Shown: piece after piece, positions 1,884-57,910 of the stretch | Position numbering within the stretch: the stretch's first letter is position 1 | How the letters are laid out: the number at the start of each line of letters is the position of its first letter | NCBI GenBank assembly: GCA_947650365.1 | Contig: OX393551.1 | Coordinates: 64,097,644-64,161,643, forward strand | DNA length: 64,000 bases | Direction: 5' to 3' | DNA from: Chamaelirium japonicum | Lineage: Eukaryota > Streptophyta > Magnoliopsida > Liliales > Melanthiaceae | Translations under genes and position numbers: made by a program | The notes under the pieces: model-generated | Databases searched by the model: none | What the model was told of the DNA's origin: nothing | What the model saw: only the letters and a program-made list of their open reading frames with translations

Positions 1884-2394
<511 letters not shown>

Positions 2395-2470
<76 letters not shown>

Positions 2471-2857
2471 GGCTGTTACAGTGAGTTGTGGGCTGCCGGG
2501 GGGGGGAAAGTGAGCTGCAGGTTTTTTGACCCCCAAGAAGTTATGGAATTTGATGAAATTTGGTAAGGTTGTTGCCTAGGATAAGATGATCGTCCTTACC
2601 AATTTTCATCAAATTCCAAAACTTCTAGGAATGTCAAATGGTCGAAGCAATTTATGCCGTCCGTAGTCACCGTTAAAATTGCTTCGACCATTTGACCCCC
2701 CTAGAAGTTTTAGAATTTGATGAAAATTGGTGAGGATGATCATCTTATCCTATGCAACAACCTCACCAAATTTCATCAAATTCCATAACTTCTTGGGGGG
2801 TCAAAAAACCCGCAGCTCACTTTCCCCCCCGGCAGCCCAGAGCTCACTGTAACAGCC

Positions 2858-2932
<75 letters not shown>
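2395..2932. mobile_element. Foldback element with (AT)n(GA)n ends
   Basis: A nearly perfect hairpin: arm 2448-2653, loop about 2654-2673, arm 2674-2880. Each arm starts with a GA/CT microsatellite followed by GGGCTGTTACAGTGAG and its complement, and ends at CAAATGGTCGAAGCAATTT. The arms are extended further by AT tracts (2395-2447, 2881-2932) that are themselves able to pair. No open frame of interest exists. If transcribed it would form a roughly 200-bp duplex, a plausible siRNA source. Confidence 0.8.
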
Positions 2933-2933
<1 letters not shown>

Positions 2934-3116
2934 CTGCCACGTGTCCTAAGAAAATGTTCAACCCTCTTTAACTTTTTTCTTTATATCTTTTCAGTGTTCA
3001 ACCCTCTTAAATGTCTATCCCATCTTACTTACTTTATGTCTTTTCAGCGGACACATGACGTAATATAAACCATATTTCACCATTCATTTGTGAATTCAAA
3101 TTCACCGAACCCTTTC

Positions 3117-3118
<2 letters not shown>

Positions 3119-10371: not shown

Positions 10372-13300
10372 ATGGTGGACGATGCGCGAGCGAGGAGGCC
10401 CCACCCCCCGCCGATCAGGGCCTCCGCCGCTGGCGCCGCCGTCGGCGGGGGCGGGGGCGGGGGCCGCAGGAGGAGGGCGGTGCGGACGTGGGTGCTCCGG
10501 GTGGGCGTCGTCATCCTGCTGTGGGTCGTCCTGATGCAGCTGACGTCGGTGACGGTGGTGTGGCAGCCCGGCCTGCTCCCCTCCTGCTTCGGCCGCCGCG
10601 GCCTTGGCCCCAACGCCACCAACAGCTTTCTCAGCTTCAACGAGAAGTCCCCACCCTCTCCGCCCGCTCTTCCCCCCCGCAGTAAGTTTTGCTTCTCTCT
10701 CTCTCGCTCTCTCTCTGTCTTTATCTTTCGGTCAACTTCTTGGAAGCTAAAACTGAATCTTTTCTGATCTTAATGAAAGAACAAGCAAGATTTTCCGCCC
10801 TTTATCAAGAAATTGTTCCACTGGTCTAGCAAGATTCTGTAATGGCTGCTATGGATGCTGGGGAACAAATTAGGGCTTCTGTTTGCTCCTCTGTTTTTCG
10901 TTGTGAGCCCCATGTTTGTAGTAGAGTTGGAACCACACATTTAGGGTGGCACTTTCTTAGTCCTTCTGCGAATTAATCATTGAGAATTGTTTTTCTTTTT
11001 TCGCTTGCAATCTTCTTGATGAAGTTGATGCCGTTTTGCTGTATTATGTATACAGTGTTCTTTATGGCTACTGTTAATTTTTTTCTAAATTTGGGGTTGG
11101 GTTTGTTCATTAGCCGTAAAAGTTAAGCGTCGGTTTGGGATATGCCTGTTTAGGGTAATTTTGTGTTTAACCTCCAAGTTTATCCCTGTTTTTAGTTACA
11201 CCCCGAAATGTTAAAAAAATTGACTTACACCCGCATTCCGTTTGCGATCCGTTTATGGGCGTTAGGCGAACTGAGCTGGCTTTGATGAGCTGAACTACTT
11301 TGGATATTGACCTTACTTGGGTAGCTGAATCAACGACTCGGATTACTTTCTCTAACCTTAAAAGGAGACCTCCAAATCAACGACTGTGATTACTTTCCTC
11401 CTCCTCATCCGAAGAAATCAAACCAAACCCTAGCCCTAATCTCCACGGCTGTTCCCTAACTTCAGAAGAAAAAGAAAAAAAAAGTAATCATTCGGCACAA
11501 ATCGAACATCCACCAGATGTAATCCTCTGGCGTATGCTTGGCCCGCTTGGGTGGCTGAATCTGATCCCATGAAGCTTAGCCCCGCTCTCCAACCACCCAT
11601 TTCCAAAAACCTTACTCTTTCCAAGAAACCCATCAACGGATCTATCATCAACGGCTCTCTTTGAGGGCCGAAAGCAACATATTTCGATCTCCCATTGCAT
11701 TTTGGGTTGCTGGAATAAGATGCATGAGTTCGAAAGTCAGAGCTCGCCTAAGAGTTCATGGATTTGGAATCGTTGCTGCTTATGATTTTGGAGTGATTGA
11801 TGTTGTTGCTCCTCTTCCTCGAGCCATACCTCTCCTCTCTCTCGTTCTTGGTAGTTTGACAAAGACCCATGGAGATTAGGGTTAGGGTTTGATTTGATTT
11901 CTTCTAATGAGGTTGGAGCGAAATTAATCCAAGCCCTTAAATTTCAGACGTCTCTTTTTAGATTAGAGAAAGTAATGGGGGTGTAAGGCAATTTTTTTAA
12001 TAGTTGGGGGCTTGATTCAACCACCCAAGCAAGAGCAATATCGGAAGTAGTCCAGTTCATCAAAGCCAGCTCTGCCCGCCTAACGCCCATTGATGGCTCG
12101 CAGACGGAATGGAGGTATAAGTCAAATTTTTAACATTTGGGGGTGTAACTTGAAAGCGGGTATAAACTTGGGGGTGAAACATAAAATTGCCCTATTGTTT
12201 AATTGCAATTATACATACAACGATTTACACATATTCTCTTTACCCTTTTTCTTCTTTTACCTTACTCGAGTAATCAGTAAAACCATGAAGACAAGGTTTG
12301 TCTTCTATTTCTGTATTACTGTGAAAAGCATCATACATATGTGTGTCCTTTTGGTAGAAACATGAGAGGAGATGGAGATCCACTCAAGGCAGAAGTAGGG
12401 TGCTAGCCCTAGGTGGAGGGGACGATAGTGGTTACTGCTTGGGCATAGTGGTATATAGCTTTTTTATCTTCAATAGTGGATATGATGTCGACGACAAGGT
12501 TAAGTGAAAATTTTCAAGTAGATTGGATAGCAAGTAGATTGGATGTGTAGTCATGTTCTAAAAAGCGGCCCAGGCAGCCGCCTAGGTAGCGCCTAGGCGC
12601 TAGGCGGCTCCCCACTGCCTCGCCTAGGTCCTAGGTGCTCCAGAAAAGCGGCCAAGCTCCCAGGCGGAGCTAGGTGGGGCAAGGCGGCCGCCTAGGCGGG
12701 CTCAGGCTGGTCAGGCGGGATCAGACTGGCCAGGCGGACCATGTTAGCTTTTGTTCTCGTTAATCACTCAATCTTGAATTATGGTCATATACTTGTTCTT
12801 TACAATAATGGTTTGGGATAATCCTGAACTTATAATAATTTTTAAACATATATATTATATAATATCAAAATAATAATTAAAATAAAGGCAAAACGCCTAG
12901 GCGCCGCCTAGACCGCCTAGGCGCTAGGCGGTCCCCACCGCCCGACTAGTGCCTAGCGCTTTTTAGAACCTTTTGGCATATTAAAATTTAATTAGGGTTT
13001 ATTGGGTTTAAATAAATGAAACCCATGAAAACTCATGAATCCCAATTAATTTTATGATAATCATGATGAATCATATCAAACTTGATGCGATTCATGTTTA
13101 TAATCTATTCTTCACGAAGATCTATTTAAGAAATTTGAAATTAAAAAAATAAAAAATAAAAATATACCTCAACTTTGAAGTTTGGAAGAAAACCCAAATC
13201 CGTGAAGAGGGGCTTCAAATCCACCAAGAAAAACAAATGGAAAGTTTGGCGATATATCGGCGATATTTAGACTTTTTTCCAAAACAGAAAATTTTAGTAT

Positions 13301-32997: not shown

Positions 32998-35900
32998 TCA
33001 ACATTTTTCTCTTGAATTCAGAAGCATTGCTTGGACTATATTATTAGCTTTCTTCAGCTCCCCTCTAGAACAGAGTGATGCAATGATGGGGTAGTAAGTG
33101 TCAAAGTCATAACATAGGGATTTCCCCATCAAATATCCATGATCTTCCAAGCCAATGTTTTCATTCTCCATCTTGCCCAATCTATGATTTCGATCAACCA
33201 TATCTTCAGTCTCACATTGCCATTTTAATCTTTCGTGCGTCTTTCTAGGAACTTCCACTGTCGTTTGAGAAATGCCTCCCTTTCCAGAATCTATCCTCCC
33301 AATATCTGTAACTAGACCCCCCGTGTCATGTAGCTTCTTGACCCGTCGAAGTCTATGGTTTCCGTTAGACCTCCACGACGAGAAATACATAAATCCTACT
33401 TCACCAAGAACATCAATGATTTCTTGAATTCTACCTTGCTCACATGCAAGAGCAAGAAGACTAACTAATGACTCAACACGAAGCTCGTTACCAGCTCTAT
33501 TTATTAGATTGATGACCTCTTCACACTGAATCATGTCCCTCAAAATGGTCCTTGCTTCTTCCATCCTTCCCTTAGTAATTAATCCTTTTATCAAATTCAT
33601 GAAACCCAAGAAATCTGGAGAAAATCCTCTCCTTCTGTACTCACCAAAGAATCCAAGAGCACCTTCTATGTCACCTTTTAGACAAAAGCCACTGATTACA
33701 GCACTGATTGTAAAGGCATCTGGTAGTAAACAACTACCCTCCAAATTCAAAAGAACCTTCAAGGCTTCTTCCATTAACCCAAAGCTGCAATATCCACTTA
33801 TCAATAAGTTGTAAACACGTGTGTTTGGATTGATTCCCTTAATAACCATCTGTTCAAATAACTTACTTGCATCTTGCAGAAATCCTTCTCTAGATACAGC
33901 ACCTATAAGAGTAGCATATGTAATGATTGTAGGAGAGACACTTTTGCGCTCCAAAGAATCAAACAGCCTAAATGCTTCAACTAGACAACCCTGCTGGCAC
34001 AAACCATTAATCACTGAATTATAGATAACAATGTTCGGGTAGATGCCCTTCTTTTCCATTCTTGCACAGAGATCTAGTGCCTTCTCGAGATTCCCTTCCT
34101 TGCAAAGCCCATCCACCACGATGGAGTATACAACTACATCTGCAGACACCCCATTTTCCTCGGCTTCCATAAGAAAAGTGTGTGCATCTTGGACTCTACC
34201 CTCCTTCTTAAGAGCATCAACCACCACAGTCAGAACTCCGACAGAAATATTTTCCTTGCCCATACCACTTAAAAATTGTATGGCATCTTCTACATTCTTC
34301 TGACAAAGGTAAAGTGACATTACATGGATCATCCTATATTCAAACATTCCATATACTTTAATGTAGTCACTCATCACCATTTGAATAAGTTCTTTATCTC
34401 CACTACGGATGAAACGTTCGAGGAGCACATAGAACGATTTACTCGTAACGGCCAGGTCTCTCCTTCTCAATACTACGTATATATCAAATGCAGCTCTGAA
34501 ACAACCGTTTGTGTATAAGAAATCAAGAGCATCATTGCATATAGCGGAGAGAAATTCAGGTTCTAATTTCTCTAACCTACAAATAAACTTCAAAACCCCC
34601 TCTCCATTGCCTTCTTTAAAATGGGCCTTGATCAACATTTTGTACGTAATAGAATTGGCAAATAGGTTTCTCTCGATAAGGTCCTGGAATACTTTGGTGG
34701 CCATTTCTACCATGTGCTCCTTACATAGTCCTCTTATAATACGGTCGTGGCAAGCAGCATCTAAGAGTGATGAAGTTCTTCTGTACTCATCGAACACAAC
34801 TAGCGCCTTGTCAACCATTCCTAGTTTACAATATCCATCAACCATTGTACAATAAGTAATGGAATTCGCAATGATACCCTTGTCAGGCATCTCCTTGAAA
34901 AGCACAGAAGCATCTTCAACCATACCGGCCATCAACATGGCCTTGATAAGTACATTACATGTAACAATGTCGAAACTAATGCTGGACGCCTCCAGTCTTC
35001 TCTTTGTTTCCATCACTCCTCCCACATCCATTTCCTTCATGTATCCATGTAACAATGTACTATACGTGAAATTGTCTCCACAATAACCCCTCGAGATCTC
35101 ATCCGCCTTGCATGTCTTCCCAGCTTTACACAATCCATTGATCACTGTATTGTATGTCACACATCCCACTTCGATCCCTTTCCTTTCCATTTCCTCAAGC
35201 AAACTGAACACCCCATCCAAATCCCCCTTCCTGCACAAGCCGTTAATCAAAACCGAATACATAAGCTCATCTACAATTATTCCCAATTTTTCCATTTTCC
35301 TAAAAACACAAAACGCCTCCTCGAATTTGCTTCTCGTGCAGAACCCCTGAACAAGCGCCGTATAAGTAACCAAATTAGGTTCAATGCCGCTGGTTTCCAT
35401 CTCATAAAAGAACCTAATCACTTTCTCTACATTCCCTTCCTTGCAGAACCCATCGATGAGGTTAGTATAGCTAACAACATCAGGCATTGCTCCATTTTCT
35501 ACCATCAGCCTATGCTTTCGAAGCCCCTCCATCAAGATCCCTTTCCTCAAATACCCACAAATCCAGCTACTGTACAGAACTGCATCCAAGACCATTCCTC
35601 CCTCCTCCATCCTCCGAACCAAATCGGAAGCCTCATCGATTCTACCCTCTCTACACAATGCATCTACAACAGCTGTAGAAGTCATCAAATTCGGCCGAAA
35701 ACCGCGGGCTTTCGAGACTCGATCATAAAACCCTAAACCATGCTCCGACCTCCCGATCTTGCAAAACCCAGAAATTATCGAACTGCAGACGAAATTATCA
35801 GATGGGTATCCGGTTTTCTCACTCGTCATGGCTTCCCACACCTCAATTGCTCTTTCCATCTTTCCCCGAGAGCTAAAAGAGAAGACCAGCGATCGGAAAG

Positions 35901-36336
35901 TGTTGGGGGAGGGAAGGATACCATGGCTCCTCACGCATTCGTGCAGTAGAGATAGCGCTGCTTCCGGGTCTTCTCCGGAGACGCAGACTCCGCGAATCAG
36001 GGAGTCCCAGAGGCCCTTTCTTGGAAGAAAGTCGTAACTTTTCGCGTGGGAGATGAATTCCTCTGCTTCTTTGAATCGACGGGCTTGGAGGAGGGCGTGA
36101 GCGACCAACGAATGGGTCCGGGAGTCGATCTCGATGGAGTTGTAAGAGATTTGGTAGAAGACTTGGAGGAGTAGCTGCGGTTTTTGAGCTCTGAGGAGGA
36201 AGGAGAGGAGGAGGTTTAGCGAATGGATGGAGGGGCTGAAGCCGTTTTTCAGGAGGCTCGGTAAAGTGAGGGTCTTGAAGGGGATTTGAGATCGGAAGTT
36301 GGTGGAGAATCTGGAGATATGAGGAGGAACGATCAT
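32998..36336 (-). CDS. P-class pentatricopeptide repeat protein (At5g57250-like), 1,112 aa
   Basis: A single uninterrupted frame, as usual for plant PPR genes. Roughly residues 30-900 consist of tandem 35-residue PPR motifs with the classic forms xxYNxxINGLCKxGxxxEA, VTYNTVINGLCKAGK and YNSVINGLCQQGCLVEAFRL. Motif spacing is P-type with no E or DYW extension. Residues about 930-1112 are a degenerate linker and a final helical repeat (SLCSRGELKKAN). I recall the same order and several identical stretches in Arabidopsis At5g57250, annotated as mitochondrial. The N-terminus (MIVPPHISRFSTNFRSQIPF) is basic and Ser/Thr-rich, which suits an organelle transit peptide. Its role would be binding and processing or stabilising an organellar transcript; the RNA target is unknown. 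The start at 36336 is the first ATG of the frame. The frame has no stop or frameshift, so it is probably functional. Confidence 0.93.
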   Translation of the reverse strand: MIVPPHISRFSTNFRSQIPFKTLTLPSLLKNGFSPSIHSLNLLLSFLLRAQKPQLLLQVFYQISYNSIEIDSRTHSLVAHALLQARRFKEAEEFISHAKSYDFLPRKGLWDSLIRGVCVSGEDPEAALSLLHECVRSHGILPSPNTFRSLVFSFSSRGKMERAIEVWEAMTSEKTGYPSDNFVCSSIISGFCKIGRSEHGLGFYDRVSKARGFRPNLMTSTAVVDALCREGRIDEASDLVRRMEEGGMVLDAVLYSSWICGYLRKGILMEGLRKHRLMVENGAMPDVVSYTNLIDGFCKEGNVEKVIRFFYEMETSGIEPNLVTYTALVQGFCTRSKFEEAFCVFRKMEKLGIIVDELMYSVLINGLCRKGDLDGVFSLLEEMERKGIEVGCVTYNTVINGLCKAGKTCKADEISRGYCGDNFTYSTLLHGYMKEMDVGGVMETKRRLEASSISFDIVTCNVLIKAMLMAGMVEDASVLFKEMPDKGIIANSITYCTMVDGYCKLGMVDKALVVFDEYRRTSSLLDAACHDRIIRGLCKEHMVEMATKVFQDLIERNLFANSITYKMLIKAHFKEGNGEGVLKFICRLEKLEPEFLSAICNDALDFLYTNGCFRAAFDIYVVLRRRDLAVTSKSFYVLLERFIRSGDKELIQMVMSDYIKVYGMFEYRMIHVMSLYLCQKNVEDAIQFLSGMGKENISVGVLTVVVDALKKEGRVQDAHTFLMEAEENGVSADVVVYSIVVDGLCKEGNLEKALDLCARMEKKGIYPNIVIYNSVINGLCQQGCLVEAFRLFDSLERKSVSPTIITYATLIGAVSREGFLQDASKLFEQMVIKGINPNTRVYNLLISGYCSFGLMEEALKVLLNLEGSCLLPDAFTISAVISGFCLKGDIEGALGFFGEYRRRGFSPDFLGFMNLIKGLITKGRMEEARTILRDMIQCEEVINLINRAGNELRVESLVSLLALACEQGRIQEIIDVLGEVGFMYFSSWRSNGNHRLRRVKKLHDTGGLVTDIGRIDSGKGGISQTTVEVPRKTHERLKWQCETEDMVDRNHRLGKMENENIGLEDHGYLMGKSLCYDFDTYYPIIASLCSRGELKKANNIVQAMLLNSREKC

Positions 36337-36597
36337 TAGAAAGAAGGGGCGGCGAGGGGAGGAGGTATGTTCCCGGCGGCGGCGGCGGCGATCTCCGCGA
36401 GTCTGGTCTTCAAGCGGCTGTCAACCCGTCTGTTTATCCTTCGTAGAGAGCAGTCGCACGGGGCGCAAGTGCTAAATGCACGCTCTTGGTAGTATGTTCT
36501 ACACACCCGTTTGAGAGTGAAAGGAATAAACTACGTGCAAATGTTTAAAATACGGTATATTTATCATTTTTAAATTGCAACAATACAGAATGTAATA

Positions 36598-36861
36598 GGG
36601 TTATTTAGACTTTGCCCCCCAAAATTTGTCTGGAATTAGACTTTACCCCCCGTAATTCATTAATTAGACTTTACCCCCCCAAAGCTAACTGTTCCGTCAG
36701 CTCTTCATCTAAGAGAAAGGTTGAGCTGACGGAAAAGAAATAAAGTTTTGAGAGGTGAGCTGACGGAACTGTCAGTTTCGGGGGGTAAAGTCTAATTAAT
36801 GAAAAGAATGGGGTATAGTCTAATTAAAGGCAAAATTTGGGAGGCAAAGTCAAAATAATCC
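36598..36861 (+). mobile_element. Mutator-type MITE, copy 1
   Basis: Ends GGGTTATTTAGACTTTGCCC and GGCAAAGTCAAAATAATCC, flanked by a perfect 9-bp duplication AATGTAATA (36589-36597 and 36862-36870). It contains GAGCTGACGGAAC words and runs of five to seven C or G. It is in the same orientation as copy 2 at 37923-38185. Non-coding. Confidence 0.9.
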
Positions 36862-36959
36862 AATGTAATATGATACTTGTTATTTCACAAGGTGAGCACA
36901 AGGAATATTTGCAATGCTTGTTATGAAAGCTACTAAAACAACCAGAATACGAGGATCAT

Positions 36960-37200: not shown

Positions 37201-37922
37201 TCGTGCCCCCTCAAAACAGATTGTGTGGGAACGGGGCAATAGGTATATGAAGACATGAAACTCCCACCACTAGGCAATGTGGGACTATTTGCTCAACACC
37301 CGCCCGCACATAAAGCACATTTCAACGGGTGCCTACTCGCACGCAAAGAATAGGTGTTAGCAGTTGGAGACCCACTCGAGGGGAGATGTGATCTTACATG
37401 ATCTTCTTTCTCTCAGCTATTTCTCTCTTTTTCTTAATTTTCTTTACATCTATTAACCCCATAACCTGAAACCATCATCACCATCGACCAAAACCTTCAA
37501 GCTCTATTAAGAATGTTTTGCTAGCTAGTTTTTTGAAAATTTGTATCTTGTTTTATCTATAACTTCTCATACAGTGGTCTGATTGATCCCAAATTTAGAT
37601 CAGATCTTCCTAACATCTAATTCAACACCCCACCAAGTTTTATCCCCATCCGACTACTGAAACTCTACCAAACAGCCAAAGACTAGCTTGTTGCAAACAA
37701 AATCTGAAAATTCTTAAATGACGAATCCGGACTCATCCGTCCCATACCTAGATCAATTTGGAAAAAACCTAAAGAATTAAGGTCATCAATTCTATCATGA
37801 GCGTGTGATACTCCATGGACCCACTTGCCGACCGCATGTCTTGGTCAAGCGGAGGAGACTCAGCATCCCTTCTCTAGCACTACAAATCGGACTACCTTTT
37901 CGGTTTGTTGGTTTTTGTTTTA
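37201..37922. other. Putative LTR remnant and gene-free DNA
   Basis: The sequence next to the copia primer site (CAAGTCACTAATCTCGTGCCCCCTC) is likely LTR. No matching second LTR was found. The remainder up to the MITE at 37923 shows nothing that I can support. Confidence 0.35.
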
Positions 37923-38185
37923 GGGTTATTTTGACTTTACCCCCCAAACTTTGCCTTGAATTAGACTTTACCTCCCATATTTCATTAATTTGACTTTACC
38001 CCCCCCCCCCAAAAAAAAAAAAAAAAAAAACCATCGAAGAGAAAGGGTGAGCTGACGGAAAATAAATACAGTTTTGGGGGGTGAGCTGACGGAACAGTTA
38101 GTTTTGGAGGGTAAAGTCTAATTAATGAAATATGAGGGGTAAAGTTTATTTCAAGACAAAATTTGGGGCAAAGACAAAATAACCC
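37923..38185 (+). mobile_element. Mutator-type MITE, copy 2
   Basis: Ends GGGTTATTTTGACTTTACCC and GGCAAAGACAAAATAACCC with a perfect 9-bp duplication TTTGTTTTA (37914-37922 and 38186-38194). It is a clear sibling of 36598-36861 at 263 versus 264 bp. A long C run followed by an A run marks its centre. Confidence 0.92.
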
Positions 38186-38319
38186 TTTGTTTTAATAAGT
38201 AACTGTAATGGTTGTTTTTTGTTTTAGGCTGTGTTTTGTTCCTTAGAATTTGCAACTCCCAGGGACTGTGAACGTTCCCAAATTCTTTCTATTAGACCAC
38301 TAGGTGCCATGGGATTTAC

Positions 38320-39803
<1,484 letters not shown>

Positions 39804-51912: not shown

Positions 51913-52455
51913 CTAGTGATTATTAGCAAATGCCCGATCGAGCCGTTCAAATATATGATGGTGACCACTTTGTTGGTTTCTCCAAGTAAACAACGTACCC
52001 GAGAAACCAAGATCAACCAAATTATAAGAAAAAATAAATTGACGGAACTCATCTACGGCCACATCAACAATGAAAGGTTTTCCACCCATCTTATCCTCAG
52101 GAGAGAGTAGCACATTAAAGTCACCCGCCAATAGAATGGGAAACGGTAATGAGTTGAGAGCAGCCAGTAACGACCTTAGTGACCTGCACTCAGAAAGGGA
52201 GGTAGCAGCATAAATGTCAACAAAGAGAAGTAATTGTTTCTGTTCATCAAGAATAATGCCAATAACTGCTTGGTGATTTGTAGAGATAAAAGCCATTGTA
52301 CAGTCCTCCATTCTCCATAAAACCAAGATACCACCTAAGCGACTGGAAGCTTCAATGCTGAAAAACGACCACTCGCGACAAGTGAGTTTCCACAAGACAT
52401 AACAGATCGATGAACCAGCTGAGTCCTTATCAAGAAACGACAATGGTTCATACAA
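51913..52455 (-). pseudogene. LINE endonuclease (EEP/APE type)
   Basis: The frame carries SSRLGGILVLWR, LLAGDFNVLLSPEDK and FTWRNQQSGHHHIFERLDRAFAN, typical of the C-terminal half of plant L1 endonucleases. The N-terminal half with the catalytic Glu is broken into other frames. Confidence 0.85.
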
Positions 52456-57173: not shown

Positions 57174-57676
57174 CAACATTCTCCCCGTTAGACCATGAAG
57201 GAGGCCCACCAATACTGCTACCCTTCAATATGGACTGTTGTTGCGCCACTTTTATCAACGTCCCCTTGAACTAGACTTACCGAGCTTTGACTGGTCATCG
57301 TTAGCTTTCTCTGCTGCAACCAGTGTTCTAAAAAGCGGTCTAGGCGGCCGCCTAGGCGCTAGGCGGCCGCCCACCGCCTCGCCTAGGCCCTAGGCGCTCC
57401 AGAAAAGCGGCCAAGCTCCCAGGCGGAGCTAGGTGGCAGCCTAGGCGGTCTAGGCGGGCTGAGGCTGGCCAAGCGGACCAGGCGAGCCAGGCGGGCTGAG
57501 GCTGACCAGGCGGGCCAGGTGGGTTGAGGTTGGCCAGGCGGACCAGGCGGGCTGTGGCTGGCCAAGCGGACCATGTTTGCTTTTGTTCTTGTTAATCACT
57601 CAATCTTGAATTATGGTTATATACTTGTTCTTTAAAATAATGGTTTGGGATAATCTTAAACTTATATTAATTTTTA

Positions 57677-57716
<40 letters not shown>

Positions 57717-57910
57717 CTAATATCAAAATAATAATTAAAATAATTAAAAAAAAGGCAAAACGCTTAGGCGCCGCCTAGGCCCCGCCTAGACCGCCTAGGC
57801 GCTAGGCAGCCCCCCACCGCCCGACTAGCGCCTAGCGCTTTTTAGAACCTTGGCTGCAACTGTTCAACTGCTCTCCCATGGGTTTGGCTGGCCCATGCTT
57901 TGATACCAGT
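57174..57910 (-). mobile_element. Internal domain of the short LTR element, split by a hAT insertion
   Basis: It starts with the purine-tract complement TTCTCCCCGTTAG and ends GCTTTGATACCAGTG, the complement of a tRNA primer site (TGGTATCAAAGC). Without the hAT insertion (57321-57860) it is only about 200 bp and non-coding, so it is a TRIM-like or internally deleted element. Confidence 0.6.
57321..57852 (+). mobile_element. Non-autonomous hAT element (CTAGGCG family), best copy
   Basis: Ends CAGTGTTCTAAAAAGCGG and CGCTTTTTAGAACCTTG with a perfect 8-bp duplication GCTGCAAC (57313-57320 and 57853-57860). The 5' part has extra AGGCGGGCTGAGGCTGGCC tandem units and the centre an (AT)n expansion at 57679-57713. 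This copy and the one in the AT tract at 2000 define the family. Confidence 0.92.

Follow-up and report, generated by a model that had tools for sequence, protein, structure and literature searches.

Introduction

Several families of short plant transposons are associated with TA microsatellites, and the closest of them are summarised here from the available portions of the respective reports. In pineapple, Ac-mMITE-1 and Ac-mMITE-2 are TIR elements associated with (TA)n, with consensus ends that are mostly GA and TC; tracts of (GA)n occur predominantly at the 5' end and those of (TC)n at the 3' end, and it has been proposed that slippage after insertion produced them (PMC8449440). The two pineapple families have a common distal TIR and occur in non-nested clusters joined by TA tracts (PMC8449440). 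The SaTar elements of guayule, rice, sorghum and citrus are small TIR elements whose microsatellite flanks are often TA and which form modular, non-nested, TA-linked arrays of unrelated families, for which circular intermediates with filler have been suggested (PMC5907723). In Medicago truncatula, MuTAnT is a foldback of four similar segments, with TIRs that start in a G run, lying in (TA)n; its empty sites average nine TA units, fewer than the flanks of occupied sites (PMC4486113). Further literature was consulted for comparison (PMC8227079, PMC12550479).

Here we describe FB1 and FB2, two foldbacks from Chamaelirium japonicum found in one window, that is, the whole stretch of 64,000 nucleotides that was analysed (contig OX393551.1, 64,097,644-64,161,643). 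They resemble the pineapple families in sharing a terminal TIR and in their TA context, GA/TC ends and TA-joined arrays, a likeness drawn from description and not from consensus sequence (PMC8449440). They differ from them in size (389 bp for FB1 and 752 bp for FB2, against 510-570 and 210-270 bp for Ac-mMITE-1 and -2) and in genome, the assembly of this different species measuring 1.52 Gb against about 0.38 Gb for pineapple, as calculated from the percentages in PMC8449440; nor does the available text of that report place TA outside GA at one and the same end, as is the case in FB1 and FB2. SaTar elements are similar in being small TIR elements with microsatellite flanks and modular arrays, but the accessible part of PMC5907723 mentions diverse non-TA microsatellites and no inverted GA/CT pattern, and copies with 9-10-bp TSD are known there, unlike anything seen for FB1 and FB2. 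MuTAnT shares the foldback, the G-run TIR and the (TA)n tracts; it differs in its length of 292 bp and in that GA tracts go unmentioned in the portion of PMC4486113 available, and a putative autonomous mudrA-like element is known for it. Insertion into TA microsatellites, as is proposed for FB1 and FB2, is also described for Micron (rice) and TAFT (maize) in the papers cited above, a likeness by description and not by sequence.

Results and Discussion

Structure of the two foldbacks

FB1 and its tracts, at 2395-2932, follow the plan (TA)26(GA)11-GGG-foldback-CCC-(TC)11(TA)26, and the same layout is repeated in FB2 at 38518-39465 with (TA)31(GA)35 on the left and (TC)13(TA)18 on the right (Table 1). 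An earlier note on this DNA, made from the letters alone, had described both foldbacks as ending in symmetric GA/CT tracts joined to AT tracts, with GGG directly after GA, and the coordinates of both elements bear this out. Aligned with its own reverse complement, FB1 shows 89% identity over 390 columns; the strand at 2448-2880 is predicted to form a single hairpin of -360.4 kcal/mol, while shuffled sequences averaged -119.9 and none of 100 did as well.

Table 1. Coordinates in the window of FB1, FB2, their microsatellite tracts and the neighbouring hAT-like MITE
Feature	Position	Strand	Remarks
hAT-like MITE	2000..2394	+	Shares the AT tract with FB1, to which it is unrelated; ends without GA
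FB1 left (AT)n/(TA)26 tract	2395..2447	.	Probable target microsatellite; common to the hAT-like MITE at 2000-2394
FB1 left-end (GA)11 tract	2448..2469	+	GGG starts at 2470
FB1, 389-bp foldback	2470..2858	+	GGGCTGTTACAGTGAG... / ...CTCACTGTAACAGCCC; arms with repeated modules
FB1 right-end (TC)11 tract	2859..2880	+	Inverted match of the left GA; CCC ends at 2858
FB1 right (TA)26 tract	2881..2932	.	
FB2 left (TA)31 tract	38518..38580	.	
FB2 left-end (GA)35 tract	38581..38650	+	GGG starts at 38651
FB2, 752-bp foldback	38651..39402	+	GGGATGATACGTTGCG... / ...CGCAACGTATCATCCC; homology to FB1 over the outer ~45 bp
FB2 right-end (TC)13 tract	39403..39428	+	CCC ends at 39402
FB2 right (TA)18 tract	39429..39465	.	

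The arms of FB1 and FB2 had been taken as wholly unrelated, and this does not stand. The first ~45 nt after GGG align with scores of 26 on the left and 27 on the right, against a best of 25 on each side among 5000 dinucleotide shuffles, the two tests being mutually dependent because the arms are near-copies of each other. The interiors differ and the terminal sequence is common; FB1 and FB2 as two independent families are thus ruled out by their common TIR ends.

Long AT tracts are difficult to assemble, and the structures might be assembly artefacts, or foldbacks and microsatellites might be neighbours by chance. The window holds 8 AT and 9 GA/CT tracts of at least 10 units each; 20,000 random placements of these tracts gave 0 or 1 adjacent AT-GA/CT pairs, against the 4 seen, which rules out chance, and the same arrangement is repeated at dozens of sites spread over many contigs. 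Together these results make proximity by chance or artefact next to impossible. Apart from FB1 and FB2, none of the inverted repeats listed for the window (BLAST E <=1e-3, arms of at least 30 nt, within 3 kb) had compound AT/GA ends within the 30 bases inspected; one partner, the hAT-like MITE, adjoins the AT tract but is without GA. A separate inverted-repeat family has related pieces 1-1.5 kb apart at 36595-36864 and 37922-38186 and is devoid of dinucleotide-microsatellite ends.

No transposase was found among the 7 of 12 listed open reading frames that were scanned with Pfam; the scan gave matches to PPR repeats and a single weak one to an endonuclease. The PPR repeats are numerous in a frame of 1112 amino acids at 32998-36336 on the minus strand (Pfam PPR_2, E 3.4e-141). 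The weak match, to an endonuclease/exonuclease domain at 51913-52455 on the minus strand, lies below the curated cut-off and is possibly a LINE remnant.

Copies of FB1 and FB2 in the genome

The 1.52-Gb assembly of the plant from which the window comes was searched for both elements. The FB1 search returned 3107 first-look candidates (not verified copies), the best 40 of which were scored and were 94-100% identical; a search with the first 110 bp of FB2 returned 551 first-look candidates (likewise not verified copies), of which 40 were scored. For FB1, 39 scored copies with 600-bp flanks and the window copy make up a sample of 40 copies and 80 ends, none dropped, which represents the best-scoring of the 3107 candidates and is no random sample. 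A mild bias toward GA is possible since the FB1 query included 5 bases of the GA tract; the FB2 query was without GA. For the FB2 family, 41 ends were parsed from 30 loci, a few of these ends belonging to sister families or being spurious. FB1 and FB2 are hence described as short, non-autonomous TIR elements with many copies.

The idea that the microsatellite is tied to the end of the element was upheld in part. In the 40 best FB1 copies, with 80 ends in all, GGG is immediately preceded by the dinucleotide GA at 67 ends, TA at 9, AA at 3 and GG at 1. Under a strict parse a run of 5 or more TA units directly follows on the outer side of 68 of the 80 ends, so that (TA)n flanks most copies of this non-random sample as in the mMITE/SaTar/MiM group. 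In the FB2 family, the head is preceded by GA at 32 of the 41 parsed ends, by TA at 7 and by GG at 2, and a single GA after TA (TAGA) is found at 13 of the 41. GA on the 5' side and TC on the 3' side, often expanded, is the pattern of the pineapple Ac-mMITE, and the FB1 and FB2 ends conform to it. The part of the claim that did not hold concerns the GA tract as the element end itself: 0-1 purine units are present at 25 of the 80 FB1 ends, and a long GA tract is therefore not an obligatory terminus.

The remaining FB1 ends carry 2-4 units (4 ends), 5-9 units (13) or at least 10 units (38), and the distribution is accordingly bimodal, with 25 ends at 0-1 unit, 4 at 2-4 units and 51 at 5 units or more. 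Purine-run lengths on the left and right of the same copy are uncorrelated (Spearman -0.25, p 0.13, 40 copies). Of the 40 copies, 19 have a purine tract of at least 2 units at both ends, 17 have one at a single end and 4 have none, whereas in pineapple the GA- or TC-associated copies mostly have TA on one side, according to the available part of PMC8449440.

These lengths bear on the possibility that the compound microsatellite forms part of the moving unit, for example if circles with filler were to enter TA tracts by homologous recombination and bring (GA)n along. Circular intermediates with filler have indeed been proposed for SaTar (PMC5907723, as far as available), TA tracts link different families end to end, and in the window copy of FB1 the tracts are equal on the two sides, 26/26 for TA and 11/11 for GA/TC. 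Against it, GA length at one end shows no correlation with that at the other across the 40 copies, a tract is present at one end only in 17 of them, and 25 of the 80 ends have 0-1 units, all of which slippage accounts for more simply; we find such a unit distinctly unlikely. Its wider form, in which both families would carry (TA)n(GA)n in the moving or recombining unit, so that jumps seed ready-made pairs of microsatellites and TA docking sites chain unrelated families, is likewise quite improbable. Homogenisation of the arms as the cause of the equal FB1 tracts was also rejected: equal purine runs of at least 2 units occur in 2 of the 40 copies, and coincidence is assumed.

Origin of the GA tracts

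In both window elements, and in the genomic copies with tracts at both ends, the GA tracts are inverted between the two ends, with GA on the left and CT on the right. This geometry argues that the GA tract is not a duplicated target. If pre-existing compound (AT)n(GA)n microsatellites had been the insertion targets, GA would run in the same direction on both sides, and the unrelated hAT-like MITE located in the same AT tract is without GA. Compound microsatellites are common in plants, which speaks for such targets; they are nevertheless highly improbable, and a GA target as such is rejected on the inverted geometry.

It is likely that FB1 and FB2 are members of two families of short, non-coding, foldback MITE-like elements in TA microsatellites whose terminal GA was expanded by slippage after insertion. 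The target would be a TA tract, which may lengthen after insertion, and the TIR would end in a G run plus one terminal GA (GAGGG...CCCTC). Once set against TA repeats, this inserted GA may grow by replication slippage, each end separately, and the outcome would be (TA)n(GA)m-element-(TC)k(TA)l. A slippage threshold would be expected to leave just such a gap as is seen between 0-1 and at least 5 GA units. Among the observations that go against this reading, the 9 of 80 FB1 ends with TA directly on GGG would need a terminal GA that was lost, and the equal tracts of the window copy of FB1 (26/26 and 11/11) are not predicted by independent slippage, although equal purine runs of at least 2 units occur in no more than 2 of the 40 copies.

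A first exact pattern, with C, G or T before GAGGG and a tail taken from the right arm of the window copy, had no match in the genome, probably because that arm differs from the family consensus. A further exact pattern yielded six genomic ends with C or G before GAGGG. Locus L080, which represents the same copy as L010, shows ...TTTCGAC|GAGGG, with a single GA beside non-TA sequence; L083 reads CCCTC|ATGAAAGG, with a single TC beside non-TA sequence; and the right end of L082 is without TC. L080 and L083 speak for a terminal GA of the element, L082 against it. Around these six ends no clear 9-10-bp TSD was seen by eye, and flanks elsewhere are mostly TA repeats. FB1 and FB2 are probably Mutator-type, a superfamily assignment that, like the choice between GAGGG and GGG as the terminus, stays short of proof since a clear 9-10-bp TSD was not seen.

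Other TIR families, many of them ending in a G run, are located in the same TA tracts as FB1 and FB2 and were used as controls. A rough clustering of TA edges, with 278 of 419 edges in clusters of at least 4, gave long GA at 61 of 103 FB1/FB2 ends against 15 of 175 others, compared by Fisher, with GA also in small clusters (3/5 and 3/15). As this clustering had put some interrupted TA tracts among the others, it was replaced by a count per family head. Ends were assigned by head from 84 sources with at most 2 substitutions and duplicates merged; those within 60 nt of a locus end were omitted, and of the 213 ends that were left, 14 were set aside for lack of (TA)5 within 120 nt. The loci had been picked via FB1 and FB2, and the other families thus represent a sample of FB1/FB2 neighbours.

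With the count limited to ends that have (TA)5 or more no further than 120 nt away, 56 of 88 ends in the FB1 family and 17 of 33 in the FB2 family carry purine runs of at least 5 units. The corresponding counts for the control heads are 1/23 for GGGGAGGGATACTC, 0/15 for GGGTCAGGATCGGA, 0/11 for GGGGCATGCTATAA, 4/12 for GGGGGATGCTTAGG, 0/11 for GGGGACGGGGAGCC and 0/6 for GGGTAGCGATCCAG. Long purine tracts are in this way found at 73 of 121 FB1/FB2 ends against 5 of 78 ends of the six other TIR families (Fisher p about 1e-15), which indicates that a TA tract beside a G run is not sufficient for GA growth. The 121 FB1/FB2 ends include 18 with a single TAGA, which none of the 78 others shows. Taken together, the family counts and the TAGA ends point to a terminal GA borne by the element as the probable seed, to be enlarged by slippage after insertion.

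GA could also arise independently of the element's own terminal bases, if the AG created at the TA|GGG junction were to undergo slippage. The AG would be a one-unit seed at the 9 of 80 FB1 ends that read TA|GGG, and in the GGGGGATGCTTAGG family TATA precedes the head at 8 of 12 ends (TATA|GGGGG) and the 4 others carry long purine tracts. A terminal GA may therefore not be needed, which keeps junction slippage in play, lends it more weight and lowers confidence in growth from an element-borne GA. It is at odds with the five other G-run families, where long purine tracts occur at 1 of 66 ends despite many TATA|GGG junctions, and with the single GA after TA, found at 18 of 121 ends against 0 of 78; growth from the junction alone is in our judgement rather unlikely. 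Whichever the seed, ends of the FB1/FB2 type do generate GA microsatellites, and the suggestion that such elements spread microsatellites was in that respect well founded.

TA tracts and element arrays

One TA tract can serve unrelated elements, as FB1 and the hAT-like MITE illustrate. This MITE is present in the window in four copies, one of them partial (2000-2394, 12553-12972, 57321-57852 and 1243-1485), with an end CAAGGTTCTAAAAAGCGC, and the copy at 57321-57852 has an 8-bp TSD, GCTGCAAC. Three copies contain an internal AT run of 4, 6 and 17 units, which indicates that short runs expand in place here. Next to FB1, between two long AT tracts, a 186-bp segment at 2933-3118 with no second copy in the window is possibly an array member.

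The outer flanks of the FB1 copies recur among themselves at 51 of 80 ends, in 7 clusters, the largest of which (22) is a loose single-linkage group, and long loci consist of TA-bounded runs of different TIR families. Modular, non-nested arrays joined by microsatellites, as in mMITE, SaTar and MiM elements, are therefore part of the picture, the non-nesting being read from the listing and not counted. G-run TIR families joined by TA like beads on a string were observed at loci L003, L005, L054, L056, L057, L062, L067 and L074, and cores such as GGGGAGGGATACTC, GGGTCAGGATCGGA and GGGGCATGCTATAA recur in TA-joined arrays.

Conclusion

FB1 and FB2 are real and genome-wide, and they are ordinary in kind: microsatellite-associated foldback MITE families and not the new class of element that the earlier note had proposed. 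The phenomenon is already in print for pineapple, where the available text of PMC8449440 describes (TA)n-associated MITEs with GA/TC ends and names slippage as the cause. The family-specific and bimodal growth of GA is a useful detail, and the families offer a natural series for the birth of microsatellites: the terminal seed is short, a single genome yields first-look candidates by the thousand, GA lengths leave a gap between 0-1 and at least 5 units, and the same TA tracts hold control families, of which most rarely grow GA. They also add one more plant genome to those with TA-linked element arrays.
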